From positions 1-35,152 of the forward strand of contig NZ_AULM01000038.1 of assembly GCF_000422285.1 (NCBI RefSeq): 35,152 bases of DNA. The letters are read 5' to 3'. Below the pieces are notes generated by a model that was not told where the DNA came from, searched no databases, and saw only the letters and a program-made list of their open reading frames with translations. This DNA is from Desulfatiglans anilini DSM 4660 (GTDB lineage Bacteria; Desulfobacterota; DSM-4660; Desulfatiglandales; Desulfatiglandaceae). Numbering within the stretch: position 1 is the first letter of the stretch; the number at the start of each line of letters is the position of its first letter. This document shows positions 10,976-30,131 of the stretch, one piece after another. A program made the translations under genes and the position numbers.

Positions 10976-11579
10976 TATATTTCATTATGCTGTTGCCAAA
11001 TCTAAGCAAAACGTACTGCTTGGTGCTCTAAAATTTCGGTGCGTAAGGCAGTTGCTAGAATTCTGTTCGGTTAGAGGTGATTTATTGCTTGACAAAGAAA
11101 ATGCTAAAGGTAGAATACGAACATTCGTTCGCTCCTTCGCTTTTTCGTCTTTTGGTGCTTTAGGGGCAATCAGGTGGGAGCTATGCATTTTACTAGGAAT
11201 TCGAACATGCTATCTTATGTCCATCCGGAAATGAAAATTTTTTGCCAGTATCAAGGAAATCAGGCCTTTGGGCGGAGGCGATCTGATGATTGCCGCATAA
11301 GCAGACGTGCGGATTGGCGCCGAGATTGGCAAAGAAATCATTTCGTGGTGGATCTATATTCTTAGACATTCCGAAGGAGAGAGTGGCAAGGCTGTAGCTT
11401 CCAACTGCGGAAAAGACATGAAAATTCTTATTTTCTGCCAGGGAAAATGGGGCGTTTAAAATTTATGCCTAGTATTGAGAACAGGCTAGCACGTAGAAGG
11501 AGCGAGCCGAGCAGGCGGAGCCTCTCAAGAAAAAAATAATGTATGAATGAGTTTGTGCGCATTTTTGGAGGTTTATAAT
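10976..11579. other. Intergenic region at the left edge of the AT-rich segment
   Basis: About 600 bases between the minus-strand promoter and the first gene of the catabolic cluster. It holds a rightward promoter with an operator-like palindrome (11089-11128), a third copy of ATCCGGAAATG (11223-11233), and two related strings (ATGAAAATTTTTTGCCAG near 11231 and ATGAAAATTCTTATTTTCTGCCAG-like near 11419). Small frames are present but none is convincing. It may contain degenerate remnants from an integration event, but no terminal repeats or transposase could be recognised. Confidence 0.4.
11089..11128 (+). promoter_or_regulatory. Promoter with TetR-type operator ahead of carboxyltransferase 1
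   Basis: TTGACA at 11089-11094, a 16-base spacer, TAGAAT at 11111-11116, and immediately after it ACGAACATTCGT at 11117-11128. The last differs at one base from the perfect palindrome ACGAACGTTCGT seen at 23585. Its position right after the -10 box suits a repressor. The start codon lies about 450 bases downstream, so the leader would be long. Confidence 0.6.
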
Positions 11580-13166
11580 ATGAGTAATAACGATAAAACA
11601 GTGAGTAAAAACCAAAAGCGAATGGAAGATTGGTGGCAGAGACGGGAAAAGATCATGCAGATGGGGGGTCCTAAAGCCGTCGAACAACACCGAAAAAAAG
11701 GCCTTATGACAGCAAGAGAAAGAGTGGATTACTTTTTCGATGCAGGGACGTTTACCGAGATTGGGACCTTTGTGACACATAGGGCAACCGCTTTTGGGAT
11801 GGACAACAAAGAGGTGCCAGCCGATGGTGTCGTGACGGGATTCGGAACGGTTAATGGCAGATATGTCGTTACGGCAAGTGAGGACTATACATGTATGGGA
11901 GGAAGTTTTGGGGAGGCTCATGGCCGGAAATTTGCTTATGCTATTGATTTCGCAAAAGATAAGGGTTGGCCTTTTGTAAGTATGAATGATTCAGGCGGCC
12001 TTAGAATGCAGGAGGGTATGGACGCGCTTGAAGCCTACGGCTGGCTATTTAGGGCTCAAGATCAGGCCTCCGGTATCATCCCGCAAATATCCTTGATTCT
12101 AGGTCCTTGCCTAGGGGGGCAGGCATATCACCCTGTGATGCAGGACTTCGTTATACAAGTAAGAGGCTCCGGGTTTTTAGGGATAGCTGGGCCAGCCTTT
12201 GTTAAAGCCCAGACAGCCGAAGAAATTAGCCTTGAAGATCTTTGTGGGGTAAAAGCGCATGCGGTGAAATCAGGTCAAACACATATTGTAGCTGAAAACG
12301 ATAAAGATTGCCTTGACAAGTGTAAACAATTATTGTCCTTCTTCCCATCGAACAATAAAGAAGCGCCTCCCACGGTTGTTAGTAAAGACAATCCTGAAAG
12401 AGAAATAGAAGGTTTGCTTGATATAATACCAGATGAGCCTTTCCGTGTTTTTGATATGTATAAAATCATAAAAAAGGTAGTTGATGAAGATAGTTTTTTT
12501 GAAACCTTAAGCCAGTACGCAACTAATATGATAACTGGGTTTGCACGTTTCAATGGACGAACAGTTGGAATTGTTGCAAACCAGCCATGTCGCTTAGCAG
12601 GTGCAATTGATATAAACGCAAGCGATAAGGCTGCAAGGTTTATAAGATTTTGTGATCTATTTAATATCCCTTTAATTACTTTTGTCGATTGTCCGGCATA
12701 TATGATAGGTTCGCAACAGGACTGGGGAGGGATTTTACGTCATGGAGCTAAACTATTGTTTGCCTGGTCAAATGCTACGGTGCCATTGATATCAATAATC
12801 ATTCGGAAATCCTATGCTGGGGCGCACTATGGGATGCTGGACAAATCCATTGGGGCGGATTTCGTGTATGCTTGGCCTACAGCAATCGTGACAGCGCTTG
12901 ACGGGAAAACAGTAGCTAGTGTAATATTTGATAAAGAGATAAAGGCGGCGGATGATTCGGAAAAAATAAGAGCTCAAAAAATCGCCGAGTATAATGAAAT
13001 TTATGCTAATCCCTACCATGCTGCGGCCAGGGGCTTTATCGACGATGTTATCGACCCGAAGGATACAAGAAAGATTATCAATAATTCGCTGAACGTGCTG
13101 CAAAATAAGTGGAAAACCTCATATTATTCGCAGCCCTGGAGAAAATATTCGAATATAAATATGTAA
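11580..13166 (+). CDS. Acyl-CoA carboxyltransferase (carboxylase/decarboxylase type), divergent
   Basis: A 528-residue protein of the biotin-dependent acyl-CoA carboxyltransferase beta family (propionyl-CoA carboxylase beta, methylmalonyl- and glutaconyl-CoA decarboxylase alpha). The N-domain has SGGLRMQEG and GPCLGGQAYHP. The C-domain has GGILRHGAKLLFAWSNATVP and RKSYAGAHYGM. Where the second copy in this window (25797-27347) keeps GGAYDVM, this one has AGAHYGM: Asp becomes Tyr417 at a position tied to acyl-group choice in this family, so the substrate probably differs from propionyl-CoA. ATG at 11580 follows GGAGG. No biotin carboxylase or carrier is adjacent. It is the first gene of the AT-rich cluster and is likely controlled from the operator at 11117. 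Confidence 0.88.
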   Translation: MSNNDKTVSKNQKRMEDWWQRREKIMQMGGPKAVEQHRKKGLMTARERVDYFFDAGTFTEIGTFVTHRATAFGMDNKEVPADGVVTGFGTVNGRYVVTASEDYTCMGGSFGEAHGRKFAYAIDFAKDKGWPFVSMNDSGGLRMQEGMDALEAYGWLFRAQDQASGIIPQISLILGPCLGGQAYHPVMQDFVIQVRGSGFLGIAGPAFVKAQTAEEISLEDLCGVKAHAVKSGQTHIVAENDKDCLDKCKQLLSFFPSNNKEAPPTVVSKDNPEREIEGLLDIIPDEPFRVFDMYKIIKKVVDEDSFFETLSQYATNMITGFARFNGRTVGIVANQPCRLAGAIDINASDKAARFIRFCDLFNIPLITFVDCPAYMIGSQQDWGGILRHGAKLLFAWSNATVPLISIIIRKSYAGAHYGMLDKSIGADFVYAWPTAIVTALDGKTVASVIFDKEIKAADDSEKIRAQKIAEYNEIYANPYHAAARGFIDDVIDPKDTRKIINNSLNVLQNKWKTSYYSQPWRKYSNINM

Positions 13167-13317
13167 AACTGAAATTATATACCGATTTTTGAAATATTAT
13201 TTAATTTTTTTTTATTCTACACTTATTGCAATGAAATAGAAAGAATAGAGTTGCCTAATTAAAATGGATAATATATGCTATTTTCCGAGAATATCAGAAT
13301 CCATTGGCTCTTGAAAC

Positions 13318-13911
13318 ATGAGAATATCTAAAACAAAACAAGATATAGTTGAAAAAGCAACTGACTTGTTCTATGAGCACGGATTTGTAAAGGCTTCAAT
13401 CCGCGATATTGTAAAGGCGGTCGGGATTACAAATTCGACGGTGTATATTCATTTTAAAAATAAAGATGAAATTCTCTATTACATTATAGAAAATATTGGC
13501 TCGACACTGCTTAGTGAGCTTAATGAAGGTATGAAAAACCATGATAATTTGATTGAATGCCTTAGAGAAATGGTTTACAGACAGGTTTGTCTTATAAAGG
13601 AGAAAAGAAAAGAAATAAAAATTTATATGGAAGAACAGTACCAACTTCCGCCTTCTCTCCGGGGCAAAGCACTTAAGCAGCATCGTGAGATATATAATAT
13701 ATATTATACGCTTTTGTGCAAAATGAACAAAATGGGATTTCTTCGTGATATTGACAATACTGTTATGACTTTTGCGGTTTTTGCAATGATGAATTGGTCC
13801 TACCGTTGGTTCGACGAAAATGGTAGACTCTCGATAGAAGAGATAGCTGATTCGATCATACGAATTTTTTTTGAGGGCATTTTCAAGGAGGGCATCCTAG
13901 AGAAAAGGTAA
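13318..13911 (+). CDS. TetR-family transcriptional regulator
   Basis: A 197-residue regulator with the TetR DNA-binding domain in residues 6-52 (LFYEHGFVKASIRDIVKAVGITNSTVYIHFKNKDEIL) and a variable helical ligand-binding domain after it. Regulators of this kind in fatty-acid clusters usually bind acyl-CoA and release DNA. No good ribosome binding site precedes ATG 13318. The gene is embedded in the catabolic cluster, and 49 bases after its stop lies the palindrome ACGAACGTTTGT (13961-13972). Related sites precede other units in the region, so it is the obvious candidate regulator. The ligand is unknown. Confidence 0.93.
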   Translation: MRISKTKQDIVEKATDLFYEHGFVKASIRDIVKAVGITNSTVYIHFKNKDEILYYIIENIGSTLLSELNEGMKNHDNLIECLREMVYRQVCLIKEKRKEIKIYMEEQYQLPPSLRGKALKQHREIYNIYYTLLCKMNKMGFLRDIDNTVMTFAVFAMMNWSYRWFDENGRLSIEEIADSIIRIFFEGIFKEGILEKR

Positions 13912-13960
13912 GCGCGTCTGCGGATTTAATATAGTTTAAAATTTTTTTAATTTAGAAAGA

Positions 13961-13972
13961 ACGAACGTTTGT
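13961..13972. promoter_or_regulatory. TetR-type operator between the regulator gene and crotonase 1
   Basis: ACGAACGTTTGT differs at one position from the perfect palindrome at 23585-23596. It lies 15 bases before the start codon of the enoyl-CoA hydratase gene and after an A/T-rich stretch that could hold a promoter. Binding here would block expression of the thiolase-dehydrogenase operon downstream. Confidence 0.6.
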
Positions 13973-13986
13973 AACTAGAGGCGATT

Positions 13987-14721
13987 ATGCTTATAAAAGA
14001 TACGCATGGAAATGTGGCAATTTTAAAAATCGACCGTCCAAGACAGGCTAACGCGCTGAATGCTGAGCTATTCGAATTGCTGAGCAATAAATTAAAAGAA
14101 TTACAGGATGACGAACGTATTCGCGTCGTAATAATCACGGGCGCTGGTGAAAAAGCGTTCTGTGCCGGGATAGATTTGAAGGAGAGGGCAAATAAGAACT
14201 TTGATGAAATGCTTTTGGAAAGGGAGACTATAATAAGAGCATTCTATCAAACACTAGGATATTTTACTAAACCAACCATTGCTGCGCTAAATGGACCAGC
14301 TTTGGGGGGTGGCGCGGAATTGGCGCTTACCTGCGATCTGAGAGTAGCAACACCAATGGCAAGTTTTGGGCAGACCGAAATTAAATGGGGGATGATTCCC
14401 TCATGTGGGGGCTGTCAGCGGCTGCGCTTAATCGTAGGTATGGGAAAAGCAAAAGAAATCATTCTTACAGGACGCGTCCTTGAGGCTGGTGAGGCATATC
14501 GACTAGGTATCTATAATAAGATTGTCAGAATAGAAGATCTGACAAAGGAAGCGATAAGACTAGCTAGGGAAATTGCTGGGAATCCAATCGTCGCAGTAAA
14601 GCAAGCTAAAAAGGTTTTGGATTTTGGTGCCTATATTAATTCAGCGCTCGATTTCGATTTTGAAGCGTCAAAAGAATGCTTTTCGAAAGGAGATGCTCAA
14701 AAAATTGCTAAAAAATTTTGA
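13987..14721 (+). CDS. Enoyl-CoA hydratase/isomerase (crotonase) 1
   Basis: A 244-residue crotonase-fold protein. The CoA/oxyanion region reads KAFCAGIDLKE and PALGGGAELALTCDLR. Both glutamates needed for hydration in classical enoyl-CoA hydratase are kept: the one in GGGAE, and 20 residues later the one in FGQTE. Hydratase activity is therefore expected. It would add water to a trans-2-enoyl-CoA in beta-oxidation; other crotonase reactions, including ring hydrolysis, cannot be excluded. ATG 13987 has AGAGG just upstream. It begins a run of rightward genes that continues into thiolase 1 (49 bases away). Confidence 0.93.
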   Translation: MLIKDTHGNVAILKIDRPRQANALNAELFELLSNKLKELQDDERIRVVIITGAGEKAFCAGIDLKERANKNFDEMLLERETIIRAFYQTLGYFTKPTIAALNGPALGGGAELALTCDLRVATPMASFGQTEIKWGMIPSCGGCQRLRLIVGMGKAKEIILTGRVLEAGEAYRLGIYNKIVRIEDLTKEAIRLAREIAGNPIVAVKQAKKVLDFGAYINSALDFDFEASKECFSKGDAQKIAKKF

Positions 14722-14770
14722 CGATACAAAAAATGGAAAACATTGATTAATGAAACTTAGGAGGTCAAGA

Positions 14771-15964
14771 ATGGAGTTGAAAGACATAGTTGTAGTTAGC
14801 GCTTGTCGAAGTCCGATGGGACTCTTTGGTGGAAGCCTTAAGGAAATGACAGTAGTAGATGTTGGATCACAGGTCATCAAAAAGACACTTCAAAAAATAG
14901 ACCTGAGTCCAGACATGGTCGACATGACAGTTTTTGGTAACTGTCGGCAGGCTGGAAACGGGGTAAATCCAGCTAGAATAGCATCGGAGATGGCGGGTAT
15001 ACCGATAGACCGTTTTGCACAAACTGTAAATTGTGCGTGCCCAACAGGTATAAAGGCAGTAATCATAGCATCACAGGACATTAGGTTAGGGGATGCGGAT
15101 ATTGTTGTGGCGGGGGGGATGGAGCATATGAGTTCAATCCCGCATCTTCTCATGGGATACAGGTGGCAGGGGTTTCGTTTAGGGAACGTATCGATCATGG
15201 ATGGGTGGAATGATACGTTTGATAGAATCGCAAAATGTTATATGGGTGAAACCGCAGAGAATGTTGCCGTAAAATATCATATACTCAGAGAAGATCAGGA
15301 TACGTTTGCGTACAATAGCCATAAAAAGGCGAGTGATGCCCAAAAAAAAGGTAAGTTTCTTGAAGAAATCGTTCCGATTGATGTGCCAGGCGATAAGAAA
15401 AGCGAAGGTTTTGTATTTGTAGAGGATGAATGTATCCGGCATGATGCAAGTATAGAAAAAATGGCGAAGCTACGTCCGGCATTTAAAAAGGAAAATGGGA
15501 CCGTGACGGCAGGAAATGCATGCGGAATGCCTGATGGCGCAGCAGCGCTAGTTCTAATGTCAAGGGAAAAAGCGAAATCACTGAGGTTACATCCTCTTTT
15601 TAGTATCGTAGCTTATTCAAATGCAGCTGTTGACAACGCATATATGGGCATTGGACCCACAGTATCAATTCCAGCAGCTCTTCGTAAAGCCGGAATGGAA
15701 AAGAATGACATAGATGCATTCGAAATTAACGAAGCGTTTGCTGCAACGAGCCTGGCCTGTGAAAGAATATTAGGGCTAGATCCGGAAAAAGTAAATATCA
15801 ATGGTGGGGCAATTTCCCTTGGACACCCAACCGGCTGCAGTGGGGCTAGATTGTTGGTGACCCTGAATAGTGTACTTAGACAGCAAGATAAGGAGTTCGG
15901 AGTTGCGAGTTTGTGTGGTGGGGGGGGCGTTTCTTGCGCTATTGTTATAAAACGAGAAGATTAG
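14771..15964 (+). CDS. Acetyl-CoA acyltransferase (thiolase) 1
   Basis: A 397-residue thiolase with all catalytic elements: nucleophile Cys90 (VNCACPTG), NEAFAA, the GHPTG histidine motif and the C-terminal CGGGG cysteine. The nucleophile context is NCACPTG instead of the common NxVCGSG, and the substrate loop around 130-155 (LLMGYRWQGFRLGN) differs from thiolase 2, so it may accept a different, perhaps branched or larger, 3-oxoacyl-CoA. The start at ATG 14771 is fixed by AGGAGG (14759-14764). It would cleave the 3-oxoacyl-CoA with free CoA in the cytoplasm. Confidence 0.92.
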   Translation: MELKDIVVVSACRSPMGLFGGSLKEMTVVDVGSQVIKKTLQKIDLSPDMVDMTVFGNCRQAGNGVNPARIASEMAGIPIDRFAQTVNCACPTGIKAVIIASQDIRLGDADIVVAGGMEHMSSIPHLLMGYRWQGFRLGNVSIMDGWNDTFDRIAKCYMGETAENVAVKYHILREDQDTFAYNSHKKASDAQKKGKFLEEIVPIDVPGDKKSEGFVFVEDECIRHDASIEKMAKLRPAFKKENGTVTAGNACGMPDGAAALVLMSREKAKSLRLHPLFSIVAYSNAAVDNAYMGIGPTVSIPAALRKAGMEKNDIDAFEINEAFAATSLACERILGLDPEKVNINGGAISLGHPTGCSGARLLVTLNSVLRQQDKEFGVASLCGGGGVSCAIVIKRED

Positions 15965-16115
15965 CAAATTAAAATATATGAACATACATTCAAAAAATCT
16001 TCTGTAATAAAAAAGATTGCACATTTCTATGAAAAAGAATTTTAAACATAAAATACGCATAGAATCGTGGTTATAGGCAAATAATATTATCTTAACCGCA
16101 AGTTAGGAGAAAATC

Positions 16116-17036
16116 ATGGATGATATAAAGGCAATTGATATGATGAATTATCCACCACAAGTCAGGGAATTGGTGGAGTATAACTTTAACGATTACGTTG
16201 AGTGGTTGCATATGGCTAAAACGACATTTAGACCTATGCTGCCTACAGGGCGATTTCCTATTACAGACGATGAAAAAGCTCAGCATAAACACCTCAAAGG
16301 TACTATGTTCTACCCGTATGATACTGTAAATGATCTAGTAAAAGCTATGGATGAATTTGGGTATGAAAAAATAACAATAGCAGCAGTAAAAATGTGGTCC
16401 CTACGATCGAACTATTTTGTCTGGGATTTTTCAGTCGATTTAGTTCAAAAACTTATTGAGAAGTCAAATGGTAGAATTATTGGTGCTGCGAGCTACAATC
16501 CTTTTAATATAGCAGAGAGCTTAAAGGAAATCGAAAAGGCCGTAAAGGAATATCATTTTAAGTTTGTGTACTTTCATACCATGAGTTTCGGATTAGCGCC
16601 GAACGATAAAAGATATTATCCGCTGTATGCGAAATGCAATGAACTAAAAATACCTGTCAGCGTACAAGTCGGACACTCAGCTGAGCCGATGCCAAGCGCG
16701 TTGGGAAATCCTATGTATATGGATGAGATTGCAATTACATTTCCGGATCTGAAAATAAATCTGTCACATACGGGTTGGCCATGGTTCAGAGAATGGTGCG
16801 ACTTAGTTTGGAAACATCCTAATGTTTATGGGGATATTTCGGCCTATATGCCGAAAAGTTTGGAGCCATACCAGATACAATTCATGTTTAGCGGGCGTGG
16901 AAATAAAAAGGTGATGTGGGGAACGAATGGAATTGGCCTCGGACGAGGAAAAAAGGAATTGATGGAGATGGAGGGGAAAGAGGAGGGTAAAAGAAACATC
17001 CTACGCGACAACGCTATTCGGTTTCTTGGATTATAA
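16116..17036 (+). CDS. Amidohydrolase-2-family protein lacking metal-binding motif
   Basis: A 306-residue protein with the overall pattern of the amidohydrolase-2 (PF04909-type) TIM barrel, the superfamily of ACMSD and resorcylate decarboxylase. Conserved parts include the barrel strands IIGAASYNPF, KFVYFHTMSF, VSVQVGHSAEP, INLSHTGWPW and KKVMWGTNG. The N-terminal Asp-x-His-x-His metal motif is replaced by IDMMNYPP (residues 7-14), and the late Asp is Asn271 in GTNG. His187 and His218 are kept. It is therefore either metal-free, repurposed or inactive. ATG 16116 follows AGGAGA. Its place between a thiolase and an acyl-CoA dehydrogenase suggests a CoA-ester-linked step such as ring opening or decarboxylation, but no reaction can be assigned. 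Confidence 0.82.
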   Translation: MDDIKAIDMMNYPPQVRELVEYNFNDYVEWLHMAKTTFRPMLPTGRFPITDDEKAQHKHLKGTMFYPYDTVNDLVKAMDEFGYEKITIAAVKMWSLRSNYFVWDFSVDLVQKLIEKSNGRIIGAASYNPFNIAESLKEIEKAVKEYHFKFVYFHTMSFGLAPNDKRYYPLYAKCNELKIPVSVQVGHSAEPMPSALGNPMYMDEIAITFPDLKINLSHTGWPWFREWCDLVWKHPNVYGDISAYMPKSLEPYQIQFMFSGRGNKKVMWGTNGIGLGRGKKELMEMEGKEEGKRNILRDNAIRFLGL

Positions 17037-17187
17037 AAGTAGTGCTGCTATTTAAATGTTAGCAACTAGAAAAAATTGTGTTAAAAATGTAAATACTAAT
17101 CAAGTGAAAAAAAGTTATGATGATTATTAAACCTAATTACGTCGCTTGTAATCAGATTTAAAACCTAATAATAAGGAGTTGTAGTCA

Positions 17188-18351
17188 ATGGATTTTGAAT
17201 TGCCAGAAGAAATCGTGTCAATACAGGATATGGCACGTAGATTTGCACAGAATGAAATTTTACCAACAGTCGGCGAGGATGAGGAGAATCACCGCTTCAG
17301 AAGGGACATAATTGAAAAAATGGGAAACCTTGGTTTTTTCGGTTGTCCAATACCAGAAGAGTACGGTGGGTCTAATCTTGGGTTTTTAGCACATACGGTT
17401 GTCGCGGAGGAGATTTCAAAGGTTAGCGGTTCGATTCGCGCGAGCTTTAACATGCAGACTATGGGGACGGCGCGGGAGATTTTCCAATTCGGTACTGATG
17501 AGCAAAAGCGTAAGTACATTCCAAGACTTATCAGCTGCGAGCTTCTTGGCTGCATTGGAATTACTGAGGCGAATGCTGGTTCGGACGTAAGCGCCATAAA
17601 GACGAAGGCTGTCAGACACGGAGATAAGTATGTTTTAAATGGATCTAAAAACTGGATTACCTATGCGCAGGTTGCTGATGTTGGAATTGTTTATGCTTAT
17701 ACAGATCCGAAGGTTAAATACAAAGGTTTGTCTGCTTTCATTGTAGATATGCACTGCCAGGGAGTGAGCGCTGGGCCTACAGCGACGAAAATGGGGTGGA
17801 AGGCCTGTCCAACTGGAGAGCTTTTTTTTGACGACGTTGAGGTGCCAAGCGAAAACCTGCTGGGGGGAGTGGAGGGGAAGGGCTTTGAGTGTGTTATGTC
17901 AGGGCTTAACAACACGCGACTTACTGCTGCGGCAGGAGCACTTGGTGTGAGCCAAGCATTGATTGAAGAGGCTGTGAAATACGCCCAAGCAAGAGAGCAG
18001 TTTGGAAAAGCCATTGGAAATTTCCAGATGGTACAGGATGAACTGGCTCGGATGATTGTAGAGACTGAGGCAGCACGATTGATGGTTTATAAGTCAGCGG
18101 TTCAAAAGGATGGTGGAAATTTAAAAAATCATTTGGAGACGGTCATGGGGAAATATTTCTCCTGCGACGTCGCATCGCGGGTTGCTGATGGTGCATTAAG
18201 AATTTTGGGAGCATACGGATATTCAAGTGAATACCCGGTTGAAAGGCTTTTCCGGGACGCAAAGCTTTATCAGATACTGGAGGGATCAGCGAATATTGGA
18301 AAAATGATAATAGCAACGGATGCGTTGGGATATAGGAAGGCGAATCGTTAA
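17188..18351 (+). CDS. Acyl-CoA dehydrogenase
   Basis: A 387-residue FAD enzyme of standard acyl-CoA dehydrogenase length. It has GCIGITEANAGSDVSAIKTKA (FAD/substrate signature), WITYAQVADV, RLTAAAGALGVSQALIEEA and YAQAREQFGKAIGNFQ. The likely catalytic base is Glu365 in QILEGSANIGK, the usual place for short- and medium-chain enzymes. It would oxidise the acyl-CoA at C2-C3 and pass electrons to ETF, which is not encoded in the window. The S-IRASFNMQ region resembles cyclic-acid and glutaryl-CoA dehydrogenases, so chain type is uncertain. The start has AAGGAG upstream, and the SDR gene follows after 14 bases. Confidence 0.93.
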   Translation: MDFELPEEIVSIQDMARRFAQNEILPTVGEDEENHRFRRDIIEKMGNLGFFGCPIPEEYGGSNLGFLAHTVVAEEISKVSGSIRASFNMQTMGTAREIFQFGTDEQKRKYIPRLISCELLGCIGITEANAGSDVSAIKTKAVRHGDKYVLNGSKNWITYAQVADVGIVYAYTDPKVKYKGLSAFIVDMHCQGVSAGPTATKMGWKACPTGELFFDDVEVPSENLLGGVEGKGFECVMSGLNNTRLTAAAGALGVSQALIEEAVKYAQAREQFGKAIGNFQMVQDELARMIVETEAARLMVYKSAVQKDGGNLKNHLETVMGKYFSCDVASRVADGALRILGAYGYSSEYPVERLFRDAKLYQILEGSANIGKMIIATDALGYRKANR

Positions 18352-18365
18352 GGAAGGTGTTTATC

Positions 18366-19118
18366 ATGACGAGACTTGCTGGAAAAACAGCTTTTATTAC
18401 TGGGGGCTCTAGGGGGGTTGGTCGAGCCATAGCAGTTGAATTTGCTCGGGAAGGCGCAAATGTTGCCATCACTTATGTAAGTAATGCCGAGGCTGCAAAA
18501 GAAGTCGTTGTAGAAATAGAAAGTTTTGGGAGACGAGGATTAGCTCTAAAAGCTGACGTGGCGGTTAGAAATGAAGTCGAGCAACTCATTGAATATATTA
18601 ACGCGAAATTGGGGCCAATCGATATCCTTGTAAACAATGCGGGGATTACGCGACCTGCAATGTTATGGAAGATGACCGATGAGCAATGGAATGCCGTTGT
18701 TGATGTTCATTTAAAAGGAAGCTTCCACTGTATACAAGCAGTATCAAAAATAATGATGGAGCGGAAATGTGGAAAAATTATCAACGTAACTTCGACCGCT
18801 GGGCTCGTCGGTACGATTGGCCAGCTAAATTACAGCGCCGCTAAGGGCGGCGTGATTGCGATGACAAAGTCAGCAGCACGTGAGCTAGCCGGAAAAAGAA
18901 TAAATGTAAACTGTATTTCTTTGGGTGTTGTCGAAACTGACATGACAAGGAAGCTCCAAGAGGATTCGAAATTGAGAGAAATATATGAGGAACGCATATT
19001 GCTAGGTCGGTTCGCTAAAACGGATGACGTTGTACCTGTCTTTCTTTTCCTAGCTTCAGGGGATTCAGATTACATGACGGGGCAGGTTTTGAACGTCGAT
19101 GGAGGTACGGTTTTATAG
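18366..19118 (+). CDS. SDR-family 3-hydroxyacyl-CoA/3-oxoacyl dehydrogenase
   Basis: A 250-residue classical short-chain dehydrogenase of the FabG type. The nucleotide loop is TGGSRGVGRAIA (residues 12-23), followed by NNAG near 88, catalytic Ser in STAG near 140, and YSAAK (Tyr/Lys) near 153. It would oxidise an (R)-3-hydroxyacyl-CoA made by the adjacent MaoC hydratase pair, or reduce a 3-oxo group. ATG 18366 is chosen over the GTG at 18357 because AAGGAAGGTG precedes it. Its tight spacing to the dehydrogenase upstream and MaoC downstream makes a single operon likely. Confidence 0.9.
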   Translation: MTRLAGKTAFITGGSRGVGRAIAVEFAREGANVAITYVSNAEAAKEVVVEIESFGRRGLALKADVAVRNEVEQLIEYINAKLGPIDILVNNAGITRPAMLWKMTDEQWNAVVDVHLKGSFHCIQAVSKIMMERKCGKIINVTSTAGLVGTIGQLNYSAAKGGVIAMTKSAARELAGKRINVNCISLGVVETDMTRKLQEDSKLREIYEERILLGRFAKTDDVVPVFLFLASGDSDYMTGQVLNVDGGTVL

Positions 19119-19139
19119 GTCACCAGATAGGATATTGTG

Positions 19140-19628
19140 ATGAATGAGCACGGTGGAAGCGCGCGGCAAAATGAATACAGCAAGGGGAAATGGTTGTTGT
19201 ATGACGATATATTCGTTGGAATGGAATTCCCGACGGTAAAATTTACAATCACTGAAGAACTAGTGAAAAAGTATTGTAAGGCAATGGGGGATGATAATCC
19301 GCTTTATTATGATAGCGAATATGCGAAAAACCTAGGATTCAGTAGACCTATTGCACCTTCGACGATCGTCTGCATTTATGCTATTCCGAGCGCTTTATTA
19401 AGTGGCTATAAGCCGAAAATAATTCCACCACCAGGAAACATCCATTTTAGACAAGAGTATGAATTTTTTAATGCCGCGCAAACTGGTGATATAATCAGCA
19501 TTTTTAGCACAGTAATAAATAAGGAAATTTTGCATATGAAAAGATTCGTAACAATTGAAAGCTTATATTTTAATCAACACGAAAAAAAAATCGCTTGTGG
19601 AAAAATTACTCCTATCTGGTCCAAATGA
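19140..19628 (+). CDS. MaoC-like hydratase subunit 1 (FAS1-dehydratase-type hot-dog domain)
   Basis: A 162-residue hot-dog-fold protein of the MaoC N-terminal/FAS1 dehydratase type. It contains KKYCKAMGDDNPLYYDSEYAK and GFSRPIAPSTIVCIYAI. At the usual Asp-x-Asn-Pro-x-His hydratase motif it has DDNPLYY, with Tyr in place of His, so it is probably non-catalytic. The next gene has the intact motif. The pair resembles two-subunit MaoC hydratases such as ChsH1-ChsH2, where each domain is a separate chain. The start is ATG 19140 or GTG 19137; only weak Shine-Dalgarno sequence is present. Confidence 0.8.
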   Translation: MNEHGGSARQNEYSKGKWLLYDDIFVGMEFPTVKFTITEELVKKYCKAMGDDNPLYYDSEYAKNLGFSRPIAPSTIVCIYAIPSALLSGYKPKIIPPPGNIHFRQEYEFFNAAQTGDIISIFSTVINKEILHMKRFVTIESLYFNQHEKKIACGKITPIWSK

Positions 19629-19664
19629 AATAGTCCGTTTGTTTGTAGAAGGGTGTTTGAAATA

Positions 19665-20066
19665 ATGAATATCGAAAAGCAAATACCTGTTTTGCATAAA
19701 GAAATTTCGCAAGATAGTATAGACGAGTATGCAATGGCTACCGGCGATTTTAATCCCATTCACGTCGATCTGGAATATGCGAAGGAGACTCCGTTTAAGG
19801 GCACAATTGCACATGGCTTCTATATTTTAGGGTTTCTTTCCGAGCTAATGACCAGAGAATTTGGTATGAGATGGACAAACGGAGGAGGCTTTGATGTGCA
19901 ATTCAAGCGACCTGTCAGGCCCGGTGATACAATTTGTGTGAGGGTAAATACACGTAACCGTTTAAAGGATTGTAGAAGTGATCGTACCTATTTTGAGGTA
20001 GTTTGGACAAACAGAAAAAATGAGATTGTCATTCTTGGTAAAACGTATATTAAAAATACGTTTTAA
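19665..20066 (+). CDS. MaoC-like (R)-specific enoyl-CoA hydratase subunit 2
   Basis: A 133-residue hot-dog-fold MaoC protein with the hydratase-2 motif intact: ATGDFNPIHVDLEYAKETPFKG (Asp and His catalytic pair), followed by IAHGFYILGFLSEL. It would hydrate a trans-2-enoyl-CoA to the (R)-3-hydroxyacyl-CoA, probably as a heteromer with the preceding subunit. I prefer ATG 19665 because GAAGGG lies about 10 bases before it; the GTG at 19653 is too close to that site. Downstream comes the CaiB-type gene, 23 bases away. Confidence 0.88.
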   Translation: MNIEKQIPVLHKEISQDSIDEYAMATGDFNPIHVDLEYAKETPFKGTIAHGFYILGFLSELMTREFGMRWTNGGGFDVQFKRPVRPGDTICVRVNTRNRLKDCRSDRTYFEVVWTNRKNEIVILGKTYIKNTF

Positions 20067-20089
20067 GTTGAAATTAGGGGAATTGCTTT

Positions 20090-21301
20090 ATGGCTTTACC
20101 ACTCGATGGGATTGCAATTTTAGACTTGACGAGGCTAATTCCAGGGCCTTTCAGCACACTTATTTTAGCCGATCTTGGAGCGGAGGTGGTGAAGATTGAG
20201 CCTCTGATCGTTGGTGATTATGAGCGGCAGATAGGACCTTTTCAAAATGGTATGGGATACAGGTTTATGTTGTTGAATAGAAACAAAAGAAGTATAGCCC
20301 TTAATCTGAAGGAGAGCGCTGGTCGTGAAATTTTTATGCGGATGGTTCAATCGTCCGATGTGGTCATTGAAGGATTTAGGCCTGGAGTTATGGAAAATCT
20401 AGGTCTCGGATATAATGATCTGAATAAAATTAATGAAAAAATCATTTATTGCTCGATTAGCAGCTATGGGCATACTGGTCCTTACCGTGAAAAAGTGGCG
20501 CATGATATTAATATCTTGGCTGTTACTGGGCTTCTGGATTTGATTGGGGCGCCCGGTGGTAGGCCCGTTATTCCTGGCGTTCAGCTCGTCGATGCTGTGA
20601 CGGCATTGTATGCCGTTATTGGAATAGAGGCCGCGCTAGCAGAAAGAGAGAAAACGGGTTATGGCCAAGAAATTGATTTGTCAATGCAAGACTGTTGTTT
20701 TTCATTGATGTTTGACAGTGTCCGTTACGAAATGTCTAATGCAGAGCGTCCACAGCGTGGAAAAGGTCGCTTAACGGGTGGACTTGCGCGTTACAACTTA
20801 TATGAGACTAAAGATGAAAGATATATAGTTCTTGGTGCACTTGAAAAAAAGTTCTATGAACATATTCTAAAAAAGCTGCATTTAGAAAATTTTTATGAAG
20901 ATAGTGAATTCCTGACAGCCTCGGAGGTTGATGAAAATAGGGAGGAAATGCTTAAAATTGAACTACAGCGTATATTTAAGACAAAATCTGCAAGGGAATG
21001 GGAAAAACTGTTGGATGAGGAGAACGTTTTCTTTAATGTTCTGAATACTGTATCTGAAGGGCTTAATGACCAGCAATTAAAATCTAGGGGCATGATTGCA
21101 GAGACAAAGCATCCTATAGCAGGTGATATAAAGCAGATAGGTTGTCCAATAAAATTTTCGCGCGCGAGCATAAGTTTGGAGCGTTTCCCTGCACCACGAT
21201 TAGGAGAACATACGAAAGAGATTCTTGCTAAACACAAGTATCAATTTTCTGAGATCGATGAGTTAATTAAAAGCGGGATTGTCGGCATTAATGAAAAATA
21301 G
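20090..21301 (+). CDS. CaiB/BaiF-family protein, alpha-methylacyl-CoA racemase-like
   Basis: A 403-residue member of the CoA-transferase family III fold. Its details match the racemase branch rather than typical transferases. HDIN at residues 138-141 and Asp168 (QLVDAV) are spaced exactly 30 apart, and Glu252 (GALEKKF) falls about 84 further on. These match the His-Asp-Glu set of mycobacterial alpha-methylacyl-CoA racemase as I remember it. The C-terminal part also has the racemase-like GEHTKEIL segment. It could interconvert the 2R and 2S forms of a methyl-branched acyl-CoA before dehydrogenation. A CoA-transferase role, for example with succinyl-CoA, remains possible. AGGGG precedes ATG 20090. 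Confidence 0.85.
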   Translation: MALPLDGIAILDLTRLIPGPFSTLILADLGAEVVKIEPLIVGDYERQIGPFQNGMGYRFMLLNRNKRSIALNLKESAGREIFMRMVQSSDVVIEGFRPGVMENLGLGYNDLNKINEKIIYCSISSYGHTGPYREKVAHDINILAVTGLLDLIGAPGGRPVIPGVQLVDAVTALYAVIGIEAALAEREKTGYGQEIDLSMQDCCFSLMFDSVRYEMSNAERPQRGKGRLTGGLARYNLYETKDERYIVLGALEKKFYEHILKKLHLENFYEDSEFLTASEVDENREEMLKIELQRIFKTKSAREWEKLLDEENVFFNVLNTVSEGLNDQQLKSRGMIAETKHPIAGDIKQIGCPIKFSRASISLERFPAPRLGEHTKEILAKHKYQFSEIDELIKSGIVGINEK

Positions 21302-21329
21302 TAAAAGCGGAAAGGACTGAAAGAGGGTT

Positions 21330-22112
21330 ATGGAACCGAAAAATGTCAACTTCGATGTAAAAAATGGGATCGGCTTTCTAACGATTGACCGGCCAAAGGC
21401 CATGAATGCCTTGAATGTTGAAACAATTGAGGAAATTAGGCTTCATGTTAGAGAAGTAAAAGAGAGTGGGAGTATCCGTGCGCTTATTATTACAGGCGCT
21501 GGGGAAAAAGCATTTGTTGCCGGTGCAGACATAACTGAGATAAGGCAATTGGGATTGAAAGATGGTTTTGACGCAATGAGGAAGGGTCATTTGATGACCA
21601 ATGAGCTAGAGACGGTTGGGGTGCCGACGATCGCAGCTGTGAACGGATTGGCTTTGGGCGGCGGATGTGAAATTGCGCTTTCATGCTCGTTAAGGTTGGT
21701 TACTGAAAATTCGAAATTTGGGTTTCCTGAGGTTGGGTTAGGCGTAATTCCTGGATACGGAGGAACGCAGAGGCTGAGTCGTTTGATTGGTAAGGGGCGC
21801 GCGCTTTGGTACCTTTTGACTGGAGAGATGATTGATTCCGACCGGGCGGTTGAAATGGGGCTCGCTAACCTAAAGGTGAAGGCTGAGGAATTGATTGAAA
21901 AATGCACTGAGATAGCGAATAAGATTGCATCTAAAGGGCCTTTTGCTGTTAAAGCCTTGCTTTGTGCCGTGAACCAAGGGTTTGAGACTGATCTGCAAAC
22001 TGCTTTGGTCCTTGAAGCAAGCATGTGTAATTTGGCACTTGCGAGTGAAGATAAAAAGGAGGGTATTAACGCCTTTTTTGAAAAGAGGAAGCCGGTGTTT
22101 AAAGGGGAATAA
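21330..22112 (+). CDS. Enoyl-CoA hydratase (crotonase) 2
   Basis: A 260-residue classical crotonase. KAFVAGADITEI and ALGGGCEIALSCSLR form the oxyanion region. The two catalytic glutamates, in GGGCE and FGFPE, are 20 residues apart as in rat mitochondrial enoyl-CoA hydratase. It likely hydrates short-chain enoyl-CoAs such as crotonyl-CoA to the (S)-3-hydroxy form, which suits the 3-hydroxyacyl-CoA dehydrogenase at 22644. It is the last gene of the operon that starts near 13987; about 530 AT-rich bases follow. AGAGGG precedes ATG 21330. Confidence 0.95.
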   Translation: MEPKNVNFDVKNGIGFLTIDRPKAMNALNVETIEEIRLHVREVKESGSIRALIITGAGEKAFVAGADITEIRQLGLKDGFDAMRKGHLMTNELETVGVPTIAAVNGLALGGGCEIALSCSLRLVTENSKFGFPEVGLGVIPGYGGTQRLSRLIGKGRALWYLLTGEMIDSDRAVEMGLANLKVKAEELIEKCTEIANKIASKGPFAVKALLCAVNQGFETDLQTALVLEASMCNLALASEDKKEGINAFFEKRKPVFKGE

Positions 22113-22643
22113 TGTTAAGCATTATGAATATAGAATTAAATTTAAGAATTATTGTATAATTATAATGGTTATTTGTATAGAATAATCATTCAGGAATATA
22201 CAAGAAATTTACAAAAACAAAAAAAGCTGTTAAAAATTCGCAAGCACATACGGGCATTAATGACTGATACAAATTGGGAAAAATGAAATAAAGTATAAAA
22301 TAAAAAAATCATAGACTGAGAAGATATATATTGACAAGAAAAGCAGAATTACATAGAAATAACTATTATATATATTTCTAACGAAAGCCTTTATAAAACG
22401 AATGATTAAGCGTAGGACCTATTGAAATAATAAACGTAGCTTAAAATGCTTATTGATTTTGCAATTTTTTTTAGAAATTAATGCTTTATGATAAAAGAAA
22501 TCTAAAAAAAGCTCAGAGCGATATAGAATCGAGCTTCAGTGAAAGAGAGGATGATAAAAATATATAGGTTGCAATAAGATTGTTTAAATTAAAAATGGTG
22601 GAGTGGTTATTCGGACAATCAGAAAATGGGAGGTATTCTTAAG
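22113..22643. other. Intergenic AT-rich region before the 3-hydroxyacyl-CoA dehydrogenase gene
   Basis: About 530 very AT-rich bases without a supported gene. A candidate promoter is TTGACA at 22331-22336 with TAGAAA at 22354-22359 (17-base spacer), though the A/T background makes chance matches common. No copy of the ACGAACGTTCGT palindrome was seen here. Confidence 0.4.
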
Positions 22644-23501
22644 ATGAGCGTGAAGAAAGTATTAGTAGTTGGCCTGGGATTGATGGGGAGGGGGATCCTT
22701 CAAGTGTGTGCCCAATCGGGACTTGAAGCATATGGTTATGATATGTCGGAAGAGGCCGTCAGAAACGCGACTGGATTTATTTCAAAAAGTTTAGAAAAGC
22801 GTGTAAAAAAGGGAAAGATGACTGAAGATGAAAAAAATAGTGTTTTAAAAAACATAAAAGCTGTCAATTCATTAGAAGATGCAAAAGATGTAGATCTTGC
22901 TATAGAGGCAGTTTATGAAGATATCAACGTGAAACAAGATGTCTTTAAAAAATTGGATGCTGTTTTACAACCTAATGCGATAATAGCATCAAACACCTCT
23001 GCTTTACCAGCCACGCCTCTTGCATCGGTTACGAAAAGACCTGACAAATTTATGATAATACATTTTCATCAGCCGCCAACAGTGATGAGGTTAATTGAAT
23101 TGGTAAAAGCTATTCAAACGAGTGATGAAACAGCTGCAACGGCTATGGAGTTTTGTAAAGCAATTAATAAGGATCCTGTACAAATAAATGTTGACTGTCC
23201 TGGGTTTCTAACAAATAGAACTATGATCCCGTTACTTAATGAAGTTATTTACTGTATTTACGAAGGGGTTTCCAGCAAAGAAGATATCGATCTGGCGTTC
23301 AAATCTGGATTTAATTGGCCAATGGGCCCAGTGACACTGTGTGATTTTATTGGGTTGGATACTCTGCTGCATATCATGGAGGATTTACATCACCGGCGGG
23401 GGGGGGATAAGTTTATACCTTGCCCACTCTTAAGCAATATGGTGGCAGCGGGGTATTTGGGACATAAATCAGGAAGAGGCTTCTACGATTATTCGAAATA
23501 A
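22644..23501 (+). CDS. 3-hydroxyacyl-CoA (3-hydroxybutyryl-CoA) dehydrogenase
   Basis: A 285-residue single-domain dehydrogenase of the Hbd/HADH type. The NAD loop is VVGLGLMGRGI (residues 8-18), followed by SNTSALPATPLA and a catalytic-histidine segment HFHQPPTVMRLIELV. The last is a variant of the common HFFNPVPVM with the first His kept. GFLTNRTMIPLLNEVI and GPVTLCDFIGLDTLL also match the family. It would oxidise (S)-3-hydroxyacyl-CoA with NAD+. ATG 22644 is preferred to the upstream ATG 22626 because GGGAGG lies between them. The gene stands alone, with more than 500 bases on each side, unlike its packed neighbours. Confidence 0.92.
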   Translation: MSVKKVLVVGLGLMGRGILQVCAQSGLEAYGYDMSEEAVRNATGFISKSLEKRVKKGKMTEDEKNSVLKNIKAVNSLEDAKDVDLAIEAVYEDINVKQDVFKKLDAVLQPNAIIASNTSALPATPLASVTKRPDKFMIIHFHQPPTVMRLIELVKAIQTSDETAATAMEFCKAINKDPVQINVDCPGFLTNRTMIPLLNEVIYCIYEGVSSKEDIDLAFKSGFNWPMGPVTLCDFIGLDTLLHIMEDLHHRRGGDKFIPCPLLSNMVAAGYLGHKSGRGFYDYSK

Positions 23502-24060
23502 TTAAAACGTTAAAGATCCTTAGTTGGTGTTAAGAAGGGTACTTTGAGAAGGCTCAATGATAATTCTTTTGTGCCTCTGAAAAAACGAACGTTCGTCTTT
23601 GTTTAAATAAAACCGTCAATTTGATTTCCAGCGAAAACGGAATCAGTAATCGATAAATTAAAAGGTATTGAAAAGAGGAAATTACTTTTTTGAAGGAAAC
23701 ATGGCTAGGCTAATCTCTTCAAGGTGATCCTGGACTACGCATATATTCTACAAGTCATATTTGCCATTTTTGTAAAATTTTTATGCTATATGAAATATGC
23801 TTGTAAATGCAATAGCTATGCCGAATTTAAACGGTGTAGCGAAAAAGCAAATCTGTGCGTGTAACACTAACGTGCAAGCGTAAATGTTTTGTTGTACTGT
23901 GTATAATAGATGTTTTTTTGTTGAAGTATATGCCGCGCAGATTTTGCATTCTAGTAGCGTATATATTTTTTGTATTGTAAATTATTGTATAGGACTTGTT
24001 GATGAAAATGGCATAAACGAAATTTAGTAATATAATGAAAATGTGTGAGGAATTTAAGAT
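23502..24060. other. Intergenic AT-rich region with operator, before thiolase 2
   Basis: About 560 bases with no supported gene. It contains the perfect palindrome at 23585-23596 and a small hairpin at 23544-23557 (TTGAG/CTCAA). The palindrome lies about 475 bases ahead of the thiolase start, similar to the long distance at 11117. No promoter box pair is convincing. Confidence 0.4.
23585..23596. promoter_or_regulatory. TetR-type operator, perfect palindrome
   Basis: ACGAACGTTCGT is a perfect 12-base palindrome in an A/T-rich setting. It is the best copy of a motif also found at 13961 (one mismatch), 11117 (one mismatch) and, in half-degraded form, at 31086. It probably binds the TetR regulator encoded at 13318-13911. 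Confidence 0.6.
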
Positions 24061-25239
24061 ATGGAAGAAGTAGTCATTTGTAGTGCTGTCCGTACACCTA
24101 TCGGTAATTTTTTGGGAAAGCTAAGCGGGGTTAGCTGTACGGAGTTGGGAGCTATCGTAATTAATGGCGCCATTGAGAGAGCTGGAATTTCTAAAAATGC
24201 CGTAGACGAAGTTGTAATGGGGAATGTGCTTCCATGCGGATTAGGCCAGAACCCGTGTAGACAGGCAATGATAAAAGCCGGAAATTTGTCTTTTGACGTC
24301 GGTGCATTAACAGTTAACAAGGTATGTGGTTCTGGACTAAAGGCAATTATGCTTCTCGTGCAGGGAATTCAAGCTGGAGATGCTAGAGTAGGTGTAGGTG
24401 GGGGTATGGAGTCTATGAGCCAGGCGCCCTATTACTTAGACAAGGCTAGGACTGGATATCGAATGGGGGTGGGGGTCATAGCTGATCATATGGTCCATGA
24501 TGGGCTCTGGGATGTGGTAAACGATTTCCATATGGGCTATACAGCTGAAATTATATCAGAAAAGTTCAAAGTATCCAAAGAAGAAATGGATCAATGGGCG
24601 TTTGATTCAAATATGAAAGCGATAAATGCTTGGGATGAAGGGAAATTTTCTGAGGAGGTTATACCTGTTAAAGTCACTGGTCGAAATGGTATGACAATTA
24701 CTATCGACAGAGATGAAGGGCCGCGTGTGCCAGATTTATCTGAGATTAGGCATCTTCGGCCTGCTTTTAAAAAGGACGGTCTGGTTACAGCGGGGAATTC
24801 ATCTAAAATTAGTGATGGGGCCGCGGCTCTCCTTGTGATGGGTAGGAGACAAGCTGAGGAATTAGGGTGCAGCATAATGGCAACAATAACTGCGCAGGCT
24901 GCAGGAGGGCTAGGTCTCGAAGATGTACTAATGTCGCCCATTAAAGCAATTCCTAAAGCATTGAGTAAAGCAGGTCTGAAGATTGATGATATAGACATCT
25001 TTGAAATAAATGAAGCGTTTGCCGCTTCGACTGTTGGCGTTATGAAAGAGCTTGGGATAAACCCTGAAAAGGTGAATGTGCATGGTGGGGCAGTGGCTCT
25101 TGGGCACCCAATAGGGGCTAGCGGTGCGAGAGTTCTGACAACGCTTTTATACGCGATGAAAGACATGAAGGCCCGGAGGGGGGTAGCCTCACTATGTCTT
25201 GGAGGTGGGGAAGCTGTTGCTTTGGTTGTTGAGATGTAA
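24061..25239 (+). CDS. Acetyl-CoA acetyltransferase (thiolase) 2
   Basis: A 392-residue thiolase with canonical catalytic residues in canonical positions: Cys89 (VNKVCGSGLKA), NEAFAA, His349 (GHPIGASG) and Cys379 (SLCLGGG). It resembles biosynthetic and degradative acetoacetyl-CoA thiolases and would release acetyl-CoA from acetoacetyl-CoA or a related short 3-oxoacyl-CoA. AGGA precedes ATG 24061. It is isolated between two AT-rich gaps and may have its own promoter controlled from the 23585 operator. Confidence 0.95.
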   Translation: MEEVVICSAVRTPIGNFLGKLSGVSCTELGAIVINGAIERAGISKNAVDEVVMGNVLPCGLGQNPCRQAMIKAGNLSFDVGALTVNKVCGSGLKAIMLLVQGIQAGDARVGVGGGMESMSQAPYYLDKARTGYRMGVGVIADHMVHDGLWDVVNDFHMGYTAEIISEKFKVSKEEMDQWAFDSNMKAINAWDEGKFSEEVIPVKVTGRNGMTITIDRDEGPRVPDLSEIRHLRPAFKKDGLVTAGNSSKISDGAAALLVMGRRQAEELGCSIMATITAQAAGGLGLEDVLMSPIKAIPKALSKAGLKIDDIDIFEINEAFAASTVGVMKELGINPEKVNVHGGAVALGHPIGASGARVLTTLLYAMKDMKARRGVASLCLGGGEAVALVVEM

Positions 25240-25796
25240 AAATAAAAAGTACTAAAATGGAGAAGGATCGCGTATTGGATGATATATTTTCTGGTTTTGT
25301 TTAATCGTGCGGGTTGTTATTGCACCACGTAGAAGAGTTCGCATGAAAGAAAAAAATTCGCACGTGAAAGAATTGTAAAATAAAGAGATGGATGCTGAAA
25401 GCAAATTTTATGTATCGATATAATGGCATAGAATTAAAACCTTTCATGTGTTCTTCTAGAATGCGAATTGTATAAAATAAGAAAATAAACATTTATTTAA
25501 GTTATATAATAATTATATTGATGAATTGAAAAAAATAATGAGTTAGTATCTACAGGTAATTAGTAAGATATTGATTTATTGCAAAGTTAGGTGCATAAAA
25601 AATGAAACTGTTGTAAAAATTGCATTGATACGTACGAGTGTGAATTGCTATATAACACATAATTGAAATGCTTGGAAAACATAACTGTATTTTATTTACT
25701 GAATGGAAAATGTAATTAATATGGCACAGTAGAAAAGAGATATCCCTATAAAATAGAACGATTCGTTATTTAGAAAATTGATGTTGGAGGTAGCTT
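25240..25796. other. Intergenic very AT-rich region before the 12S gene
   Basis: About 557 bases; one 60-base sample (25501-25560) has only 11 G+C. No gene is supported. Close to its right end is AACGATTCGTT (25757-25767), a shortened relative of the operator motif but with a different half-site spacing, so I do not call it an operator. Confidence 0.4.
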
Positions 25797-27347
25797 GTGA
25801 GTGTTGAAGATAAAATACAAGAGCTACAAAAAAGAAATCGAGAAGCTGAGCTTGGCGGGGGACAGAGGCGAATTGATGAACAACATGCCAAAAGTAAACT
25901 CACAGCGAGGGAACGAATAGGCTTTCTTCTTGATGAAGGCACTTTCGAAGAGTTGGACAAGTTTGTTTTGCATAGGTGTCATGATTTTGGGATGGAAAAG
26001 CAGAGAGTACCTGGGGATGGCGTTGTTACCGGGTTCGGCACCATAAATGGGCGACTTGTATTTGTCTTTGCTCAGGATTTTACGGTTTTCGGCGGCTCAT
26101 TGAGTGGCGCGTTCGGAGAGAAGGTTTGCAAAATTATGGACTTGGCACTGAAAAGCGGTGCCCCTATTATAGGTTTGAATGATTCTGGTGGTGCTAGGAT
26201 ACAAGAGGGAGTTGTCAGTCTCGCAAGTTATGGAGAGATTTTTAAAAGGAATGTGTTTTGCTCGGGTGTTGTGCCTCAGATTTCTGTTATTATGGGGCCA
26301 TGCGCAGGAGGGGCTGTTTATTCACCTGCCCTAACGGACTTTATAATCATGGTAAAAAGAACAAGCAACATGTTCATTACTGGGCCAGAGGTGATAAAAA
26401 CAGTTACTGCTGAGACTGTAACTTCGGACGAGCTTGGAGGAGCTCTAACACATAACGCAAAAAGCGGTGTCGCCCACTTCGCAGCTGAGTCTGACTATGA
26501 CGCATTAGATAATGTTAAGAAATTATTAGGCTTCCTGCCGCAGAATTTCAGGGAAATGCCTCTAGAGAAGGAGTGTGTAGACGACCCAAAGCGTACCGAC
26601 AAGTCGCTTAACAAAATTGTGCCTACGAATCCGCGGACGCCGTACGATATGAAAGAGATTATTCACTCAGTTCTGGATAATCATGAGTTTTTCGAAGTGC
26701 AGAGGCGATTCGCAATGAATCTGATCGTAGGGTTCGGGCGATTGAATGGGATGGTTGTGGGAATCGTGGCCAATCAGCCTCGAGTTCTCGCGGGGTGCCT
26801 TGATATCAACGCTTCTCTGAAGTGCTCAAGATTCGTAAGAACTTGTGACTGCTTCAATATTCCACTTGTTACGTTTGTTGATGTGCCTGGCTTTCTGCCT
26901 GGTATTAATCAGGAATATGGCGGAATCATAAAACATGGTGCTAAGATAATATACGCATACTGTGAGGCGACTGTTCCGAAAATTACTGTTATTACTAGGA
27001 AGGCGTATGGTGGAGCATATGATGTAATGTCAAGTAAACATCACGGGGCTGATATAAATTTCGCATATCCAACAGCTGAGATTGCTGTAATGGGACCTGA
27101 GGGGGCTGTGAATATTATATACAAGAAAGAAATTAACGGCGCAACGAATGGTGAGCATATAAAAAAGAAGTTTGTTGAAGAATATCGTGAGAGTTTTGCA
27201 AGTCCATTCAAGGCGGCTGAGTTGGGATATATAGATCACATCATTTTTCCTGAAAACACACGGCCTCGACTTATAAAAGCCCTCAAAATGTTAAAAACAA
27301 AAAAGGACTGGATTCCAGAGAGACGACATGGAAACGTTCCTTTGTAG
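25797..27347 (+). CDS. Propionyl/methylmalonyl-CoA carboxyltransferase, 12S subunit type
   Basis: A 516-residue carboxyltransferase of the classical PccB/transcarboxylase 12S family. The N-domain has [11 protein letters not shown] (residues 128-138) and [12 protein letters not shown] (167-178). The C-domain has [35 protein letters not shown] with the propionyl-type Asp409, and [11 protein letters not shown]. It would transfer the carboxyl group between biotin and propionyl-CoA/methylmalonyl-CoA. GTG 25797 is the start, set by GGAGG at 25786-25790. The next gene is the 5S partner, pointing to methylmalonyl-CoA:pyruvate transcarboxylase. Propionyl-CoA carboxylase or a sodium-pumping decarboxylase are alternatives if a biotin carboxylase or membrane subunit lies elsewhere. 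Confidence 0.93.
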
Positions 27348-27422
27348 AGGGTGTGGTAGTTCAAGGGAATTATTAAATTTTTATATTATATACTAAGTTT
27401 GTAATTTAAGTAGGAGATTGAA

Positions 27423-28916: not shown

Positions 28917-28953
28917 GGGAAAAAGTCTAATGGTTAACGGAGAACAGTGAGTA

Positions 28954-30129: not shown

Positions 30130-30131
30130 TT

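Follow-up and report, generated by a model that had tools for sequence, protein, structure and literature searches.

Apparent clade-wide loss of the canonical metal ligands in ThnN-type amidohydrolase-fold proteins, candidate ring-opening hydrolases of anaerobic aromatic degradation

What can a protein of a metallohydrolase family do once its metal ligands have gone? The question is raised by a gene of Desulfatiglans anilini DSM 4660 that lies in a stretch of 35,152 nucleotides (contig NZ_AULM01000038.1, positions 1 to 35,152; hereafter the window). The open reading frame (16116-17036, + strand) is intact, encodes 306 amino acids and has a ribosome-binding-like AGGAG ahead of its ATG. Its product matched Amidohydro_2 (PF04909) over residues 109-306 (E = 1e-30; 107.9 bits against a curated cut-off of 26.4). 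From this match, the reading frame, the tree and the selection analysis below, we assigned it as an amidohydrolase-fold gene of the ThnN type, and we use the name AMH for such genes across loci. Gene annotation of the window bore out the setting given in the preliminary description, with beta-oxidation genes on both sides of AMH. An AF2 model of the window protein from a two-row alignment reached a pLDDT of 41, too low for use, and DitZ was a weak match in the PDB.

ACMSD-type enzymes of PF04909 are metal-dependent and carry an HxH pair, two further His and an Asp as ligands. In the numbering of the window protein, these five canonical positions are 10, 12, 184, 218 and 271. The family-wide alignment placed Met10 and Tyr12 at the HxH pair, within the segment D8-M9-M10-N11-Y12 (16137-16151, +) that replaces the canonical D-x-H-x-H, so that both His residues are replaced and the motif Asp is kept. 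Profile-profile alignment (hhalign) placed His218 (16767-16769, +) at the beta-6 His and Asn271 (16926-16928, +) at the beta-8 Asp, a position with Asn in 17/22 and His in 5/22 members of the clade described below. In the same alignment, the clade sequence IPVSVQVGHS paired with IPVMFHTGTS of metal-type relatives; the beta-5 ligand position therefore falls on Gln184 (16665-16667, +), and His187 (16674-16676, +) lies opposite a Thr. The family-wide alignment agreed in placing the beta-5 ligand at Gln184. The preliminary description had claimed that metal ligands are missing, and it was right about DMMNY at residues 8-12, about Asn271 and about the kept His218, but its reading of His187 as a retained ligand was rejected: this residue stands three residues past the beta-5 position and is a residue of the clade (19/22; Gln in three members) and not a canonical ligand. 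Compared with ACMSD-type enzymes, the window protein lacks the strand-1 D-x-H-x-H, the strand-5 His and the strand-8 Asp and has the strand-6 His, keeping one of the five canonical ligand positions plus the motif Asp8. These alignments confirm that the metal site is missing and show that more of it has gone than first described.

We then asked how far this loss extends. The homologue search covered 395 genomes from the phylum as well as 85 from the class or order, and a maximum-likelihood tree was built from 56 rows. The ThnN-type proteins formed a clade of 22 rows (support 96/89) from about ten families of one phylum, and 16 metal-type rows with all five ligands grouped apart (98/97). Position 10 is His in none of the 22 members, position 184 is Gln in all of them and position 271 is Asp in none, while position 12 is His in four. 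The DMMNY-type variant thus marks a conserved clade, as the preliminary description had proposed to check, and none of the homologues that share its neighbours has an HxH motif. Within the clade, the window protein fell in a six-row subclade with the AMH proteins of thn operons (L006, L035 and L083; support 100/99). Its closest copy, a 60-aa fragment from Candidatus Tharpella aukensis with 88% identity, also reads DMMNYPP and is likewise preceded by TetR, enoyl-CoA hydratase (ECH) and thiolase genes.

Selection on the gene is strongly purifying. Over the 60 codons of the Candidatus Tharpella aukensis fragment (L004), the window gene and this copy have 29 synonymous and 7 non-synonymous differences, and two other close pairs gave a dN of 0.012 with a dS of 0.58-0.72 (dN/dS about 0.02). 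Together with the uninterrupted 306-aa frame, this supports the earlier statement that the protein is intact and well kept. Taken by themselves, the absent ligands would suit an ordinary metallohydrolase that has simply decayed in the window copy; we rejected this reading as scarcely credible, since the same loss runs through the clade, the reading frames are intact and dN is far below dS. As judged from the distribution of residues over the clade, the metal site was lost in its ancestor, and the loss is not peculiar to the window copy. Wider sampling of the orders and classes that had given single matches yielded no additional clade members, and a search of viral contigs yielded no homologue of the window protein. 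A sister group with a QVGHTGPL motif (L079, L080, L081, L128 and L133-L135) has Trp in the HxH region and Gln at 184 and adjoins acyl-CoA dehydrogenase (ACAD) and crotonase genes; it is a second branch without the metal site.

Six residues, E29, S95, Y127, H154, E190 and T219, are found in 22/22 clade members and are rare in both other groups; D8, Q184 and H218 are also invariant. Among the clade-specific residues are Ser95 (16398-16400, +), Glu190 (16683-16685, +) and His154 (16575-16577, +), a candidate acid/base or new metal ligand that has Tyr, Glu, Val or Gln opposite it in relatives. Homology with the metal ligands puts D8, Q184, H218 and N271 at the ends of strands, and S95, Y127 and H154 follow hydrophobic stretches that probably represent strands 2, 3 and 4. 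This pattern suggests that the mouth of the active site has been kept while its chemistry has changed.

The identity of the clade came from gene order. The thn operon of NaphS2 is laid out in Table 1 of a 2025 review (PMC12016498), and one clade locus, L063, parallels 15 consecutive genes of it with AMH exactly at thnN. Both L062 and L063 show the order MaoC-MaoC-thiolase-HBDH-ECH-ECH-AMH-ACAD-SDR-CoA-transferase-AtuA, with HGD-D, two BadFG and a ferredoxin-like gene upstream of the MaoC-MaoC run in L063; L093 shows AMH-ACAD-SDR-CoA-transferase-AtuA. With ThnN identified by this synteny with the published table, AMH of the window belongs to the ThnN family, which is linked to the anaerobic degradation of polycyclic aromatics. 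The hydrolase of the first ring in naphthalene degradation is unidentified, and ThnN is the best remaining and never-tested candidate; its family is described as using a metal ion, with metal-activated water assumed (PMC12016498). ThnL, a crotonase, opened the ring of a model compound and had no such activity on the true intermediate, and BamU of Geobacter is a ThnN homologue of unknown function (PMC12016498) that was induced 10.4-fold on benzoate (PMC1924859). In the open-access literature, we found no test of ThnN and no mention of its missing ligands.

The block around AMH in the window, with all genes on the + strand, is headed by a TetR-type regulator (13318-13911; in the same place in L078), an enoyl-CoA hydratase/isomerase like ThnM (45-47%; 13987-14721) and a thiolase like ThnJ (41-42%; TIGR01930; 14750-15964). 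AMH is followed by an acyl-CoA dehydrogenase like ThnO (45-46%; 17188-18351), which scored above the NCBIfam cut-off for the glutaryl-CoA dehydrogenase Acd, an SDR oxidoreductase like ThnW of the NaphS2-type operon (51-52%; 18357-19118), a MaoC-type hydratase like ThnH (37%; 19137-19628), a family III (CaiB) CoA-transferase (20090-21301), an enoyl-CoA hydratase (21330-22112), a 3-hydroxyacyl-CoA dehydrogenase like ThnK (45-50%; 22626-23501), a second thiolase (24061-25239) and an MmdA-type carboxyltransferase below the family cut-off (25797-27347). A second MmdA-type carboxyltransferase, also below the cut-off, lies at 11547-13166, so that the two flank the block. A glutaconyl-CoA decarboxylase role of these carboxyltransferases would fit the neighbouring glutaryl-CoA dehydrogenase. 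The block may convert a dicarboxylic acyl-CoA to acetyl-CoA by way of glutaryl-CoA-like and crotonyl-CoA-like steps; ring opening followed by thiolysis would give such a compound.

The G+C content is 41% in the block (11000-31000 of the window) compared with 63% in the flank at 1-10 kb, and it rises again past 31 kb. The other genome of the genus gave no AMH match, and the closest relative of the first genes of the block belongs to a different family. The low G+C content and the lack of a match within the genus point to horizontal acquisition of the block; no repeats, tRNA or RNA families were seen at its edges as island marks. A promoter and terminator scan of the window gave no more matches than shuffled sequence, so the operon structure is drawn from strand and order. 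Six thn-like neighbours are present, and the window holds no aryl-CoA reductase, ThnP or AtuA-type lyase gene. The same genome has Oah/BamA, the ordinary ring-opening hydrolase for benzoyl-CoA, and a search of it for AtuA, in which no control responded, gave no match; because of these two results, a naphthalene route is not indicated there.

ThnN-type genes range well beyond naphthalene operons. A dearomatising-type reductase gene was nearby at 9/21 clade loci compared with 1/12 loci of the GHTGPL group and 1/13 metal-type loci (Fisher p about 0.05, from loci that are not independent), which is suggestive only of a tie between AMH and reductase neighbours. The smallest operon, at L064 (4688-11498) and L094, consists of TetR, two BadFG, two HGD-D, ferredoxin, AMH and hydroxyacyl-CoA dehydrogenase genes; its aryl-CoA reductase genes resemble BzdQ, BzdN and BzdO (bzd-type), and it has no crotonase gene. 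At L074 and L095, AMH occurs with BadFG, CoA ligase and beta-oxidation genes. At four loci, L065 (8472-12583), L066, L067 and L068, it adjoins a MaoC-like protein and an OYE-family flavoenzyme whose best NCBIfam match, BaiCD, was below the cut-off; three of these loci (L065, L067 and L068) have FadL-type porins, and the OYE-linked members are the ones with His12 (four) and Gln187 (three). At L069 and L070, the genes around AMH encode a glycyl radical enzyme with its activase, an ECH and acyl-CoA dehydrogenases, with at least three glycyl radical enzymes in 19 kb, the scanned one falling below all named-family cut-offs. These loci possibly serve to activate a ring or alkyl acid by a radical route not known so far. 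No clear ring-degradation context was seen at L071, L073 and L077. At L073 (8315-10748; genome G406), two ThnN-type genes stand in tandem without clear aromatic-degradation neighbours.

What reaction, then, might AMH catalyse? The reading that we favour, tentatively and with somewhat less than even confidence, is that AMH is an active, probably metal-independent hydrolase that opens cyclic beta-oxoacyl-CoA rings, with reaction, substrate, metal independence and residue geometry all deduced from sequence and context. The ancestor of the ThnN clade would have lost the canonical metal site while the protein stayed an enzyme. The invariant D8, S95, Y127, H154, Q184/H187/E190, H218 and N271 are expected where the barrel strands end on the C-terminal side and could form a metal-free acid-base site; water activated there would attack a carbonyl in the ring of a cyclic beta-oxoacyl-CoA and open the ring by a retro-Claisen reaction. 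This would yield an open-chain 3-oxoacyl-CoA carrying a free carboxylate at its end, to be shortened by the neighbouring thiolase and oxidised by the neighbouring acyl-CoA dehydrogenase. Retro-Claisen ring opening in crotonase-type enzymes needs no metal. The position of AMH between the thiolase and the acyl-CoA dehydrogenase over the glutaryl-CoA dehydrogenase cut-off favours ring opening, because the thiolase and glutaryl-CoA dehydrogenase steps would follow it, and so does the vacant hydrolase step in the thn pathway. Moreover, in phenanthrene degradation the hydration of the diene is done by ApcA, a crotonase similar to ThnA (PMC13365417), which leaves the hydrolase step unfilled. Counting against ring opening are BamA in the same genome, the activity of ThnL on the model compound, the several clade members that lack a clear ring-degradation context and the crotonase-free minimal operon, which would also suit a hydratase. 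The earlier suggestion that the protein has taken on a new role in the ring chemistry of CoA esters is plausible. The wider form of our reading, in which the clade lost its metal before spreading through anaerobic aromatic degraders and opens reduced polycyclic and related CoA-ester rings without a metal at a new His/Glu-based site, seems to us only possible, and more doubtful than ring opening by AMH itself.

The invariant residues could also be taken as a rebuilt metal site. AMH would then still be metal-dependent, with D8, H154, H187/E190 and H218 as ligands and a metal-bound water used for the hydrolysis or hydration of a cyclic CoA ester. The invariance of D8, H154, E190 and H218 in 22/22 members, and the use of beta-4 as a metal-ligand position in several amidohydrolase subtypes, would suit this; however, four of the five canonical positions are altered, H187 is Gln in three members, and Q184 and N271 or H271 would be poor substitutes, so we consider it unlikely, if the most serious of the alternatives. 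Ranked below it, and improbable, is a metal-independent enzyme that adds water without opening the ring, acting as hydratase on a dienoyl- or enoyl-CoA ring or a beta-oxo-octahydro intermediate. The L064/L094 operon without crotonase puts AMH at the place of a hydratase, and hexahydro-2-naphthoyl-CoA was not converted by any of six other thn hydratases, and a further hydration step has no assigned enzyme (PMC12016498). Against this stands the assignment of ApcA, and ThnA may have misfolded in the naphthalene tests (PMC12016498). We regard as quite improbable a non-catalytic protein, either a structural partner of beta-oxidation enzymes or an acyl-CoA-binding pseudo-enzyme: the metal site is gone and several clade members have little context, yet polar clade-specific residues at or near the catalytic strand ends are invariant over deep divergence, and purifying selection is strong.

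Ring opening by a probably metal-free AMH remains our preferred reading, and it bears on the open question of which enzyme cleaves the first ring when naphthalene is degraded anaerobically, a step for which ThnN is the leading candidate. Judged by sequence, the assumption of metal-activated water for ThnN is probably wrong across the clade, 'metallo-dependent hydrolase' annotations are probably misleading in ThnN-type operons, and H154, E190, H218, D8 and S95 are the key candidate residues.

Among known systems, the nearest is ThnN itself (N47_E41360 / NPH_5899), which, as placed by synteny with the published table, belongs to the same clade and lacks the same ligands; the window protein shares 61-65% identity with the AMH proteins from three thn-type operons. 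The thn operon and the window have ThnM-, ThnJ-, ThnO-, ThnW-, ThnK- and ThnH-like neighbours in common and differ in the reductase, ThnP and AtuA-type genes that the window block lacks. BamU (Gmet_2147), an amidohydrolase-type gene of the anaerobic benzoate cluster of Geobacter metallireducens, is likened to ThnN through its description in the literature. ACMSD, the gamma-resorcylate and 5-carboxyvanillate decarboxylases and 4-oxalomesaconate hydratase share the Pfam family and the fold by profile match, whereas the window protein is altered at four of their five ligand positions. Among proteins of solved structure, the best match to the clade profile is the uncharacterised BB4693 (PDB 3irs and 3k4w; 2e-30), which has likewise lost two ligands, with Met for the beta-5 His and Ala for the beta-8 Asp; its active site differs, however, because Glu lies opposite H154, Gly lies opposite H187 and E190 is unmatched. 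LigI, the 2-pyrone-4,6-dicarboxylate lactonase, belongs to the amidohydrolase superfamily, hydrolyses its substrate independently of metal and is, by description, a precedent for metal-free catalysis, although its substrate is a lactone and not a CoA ester.
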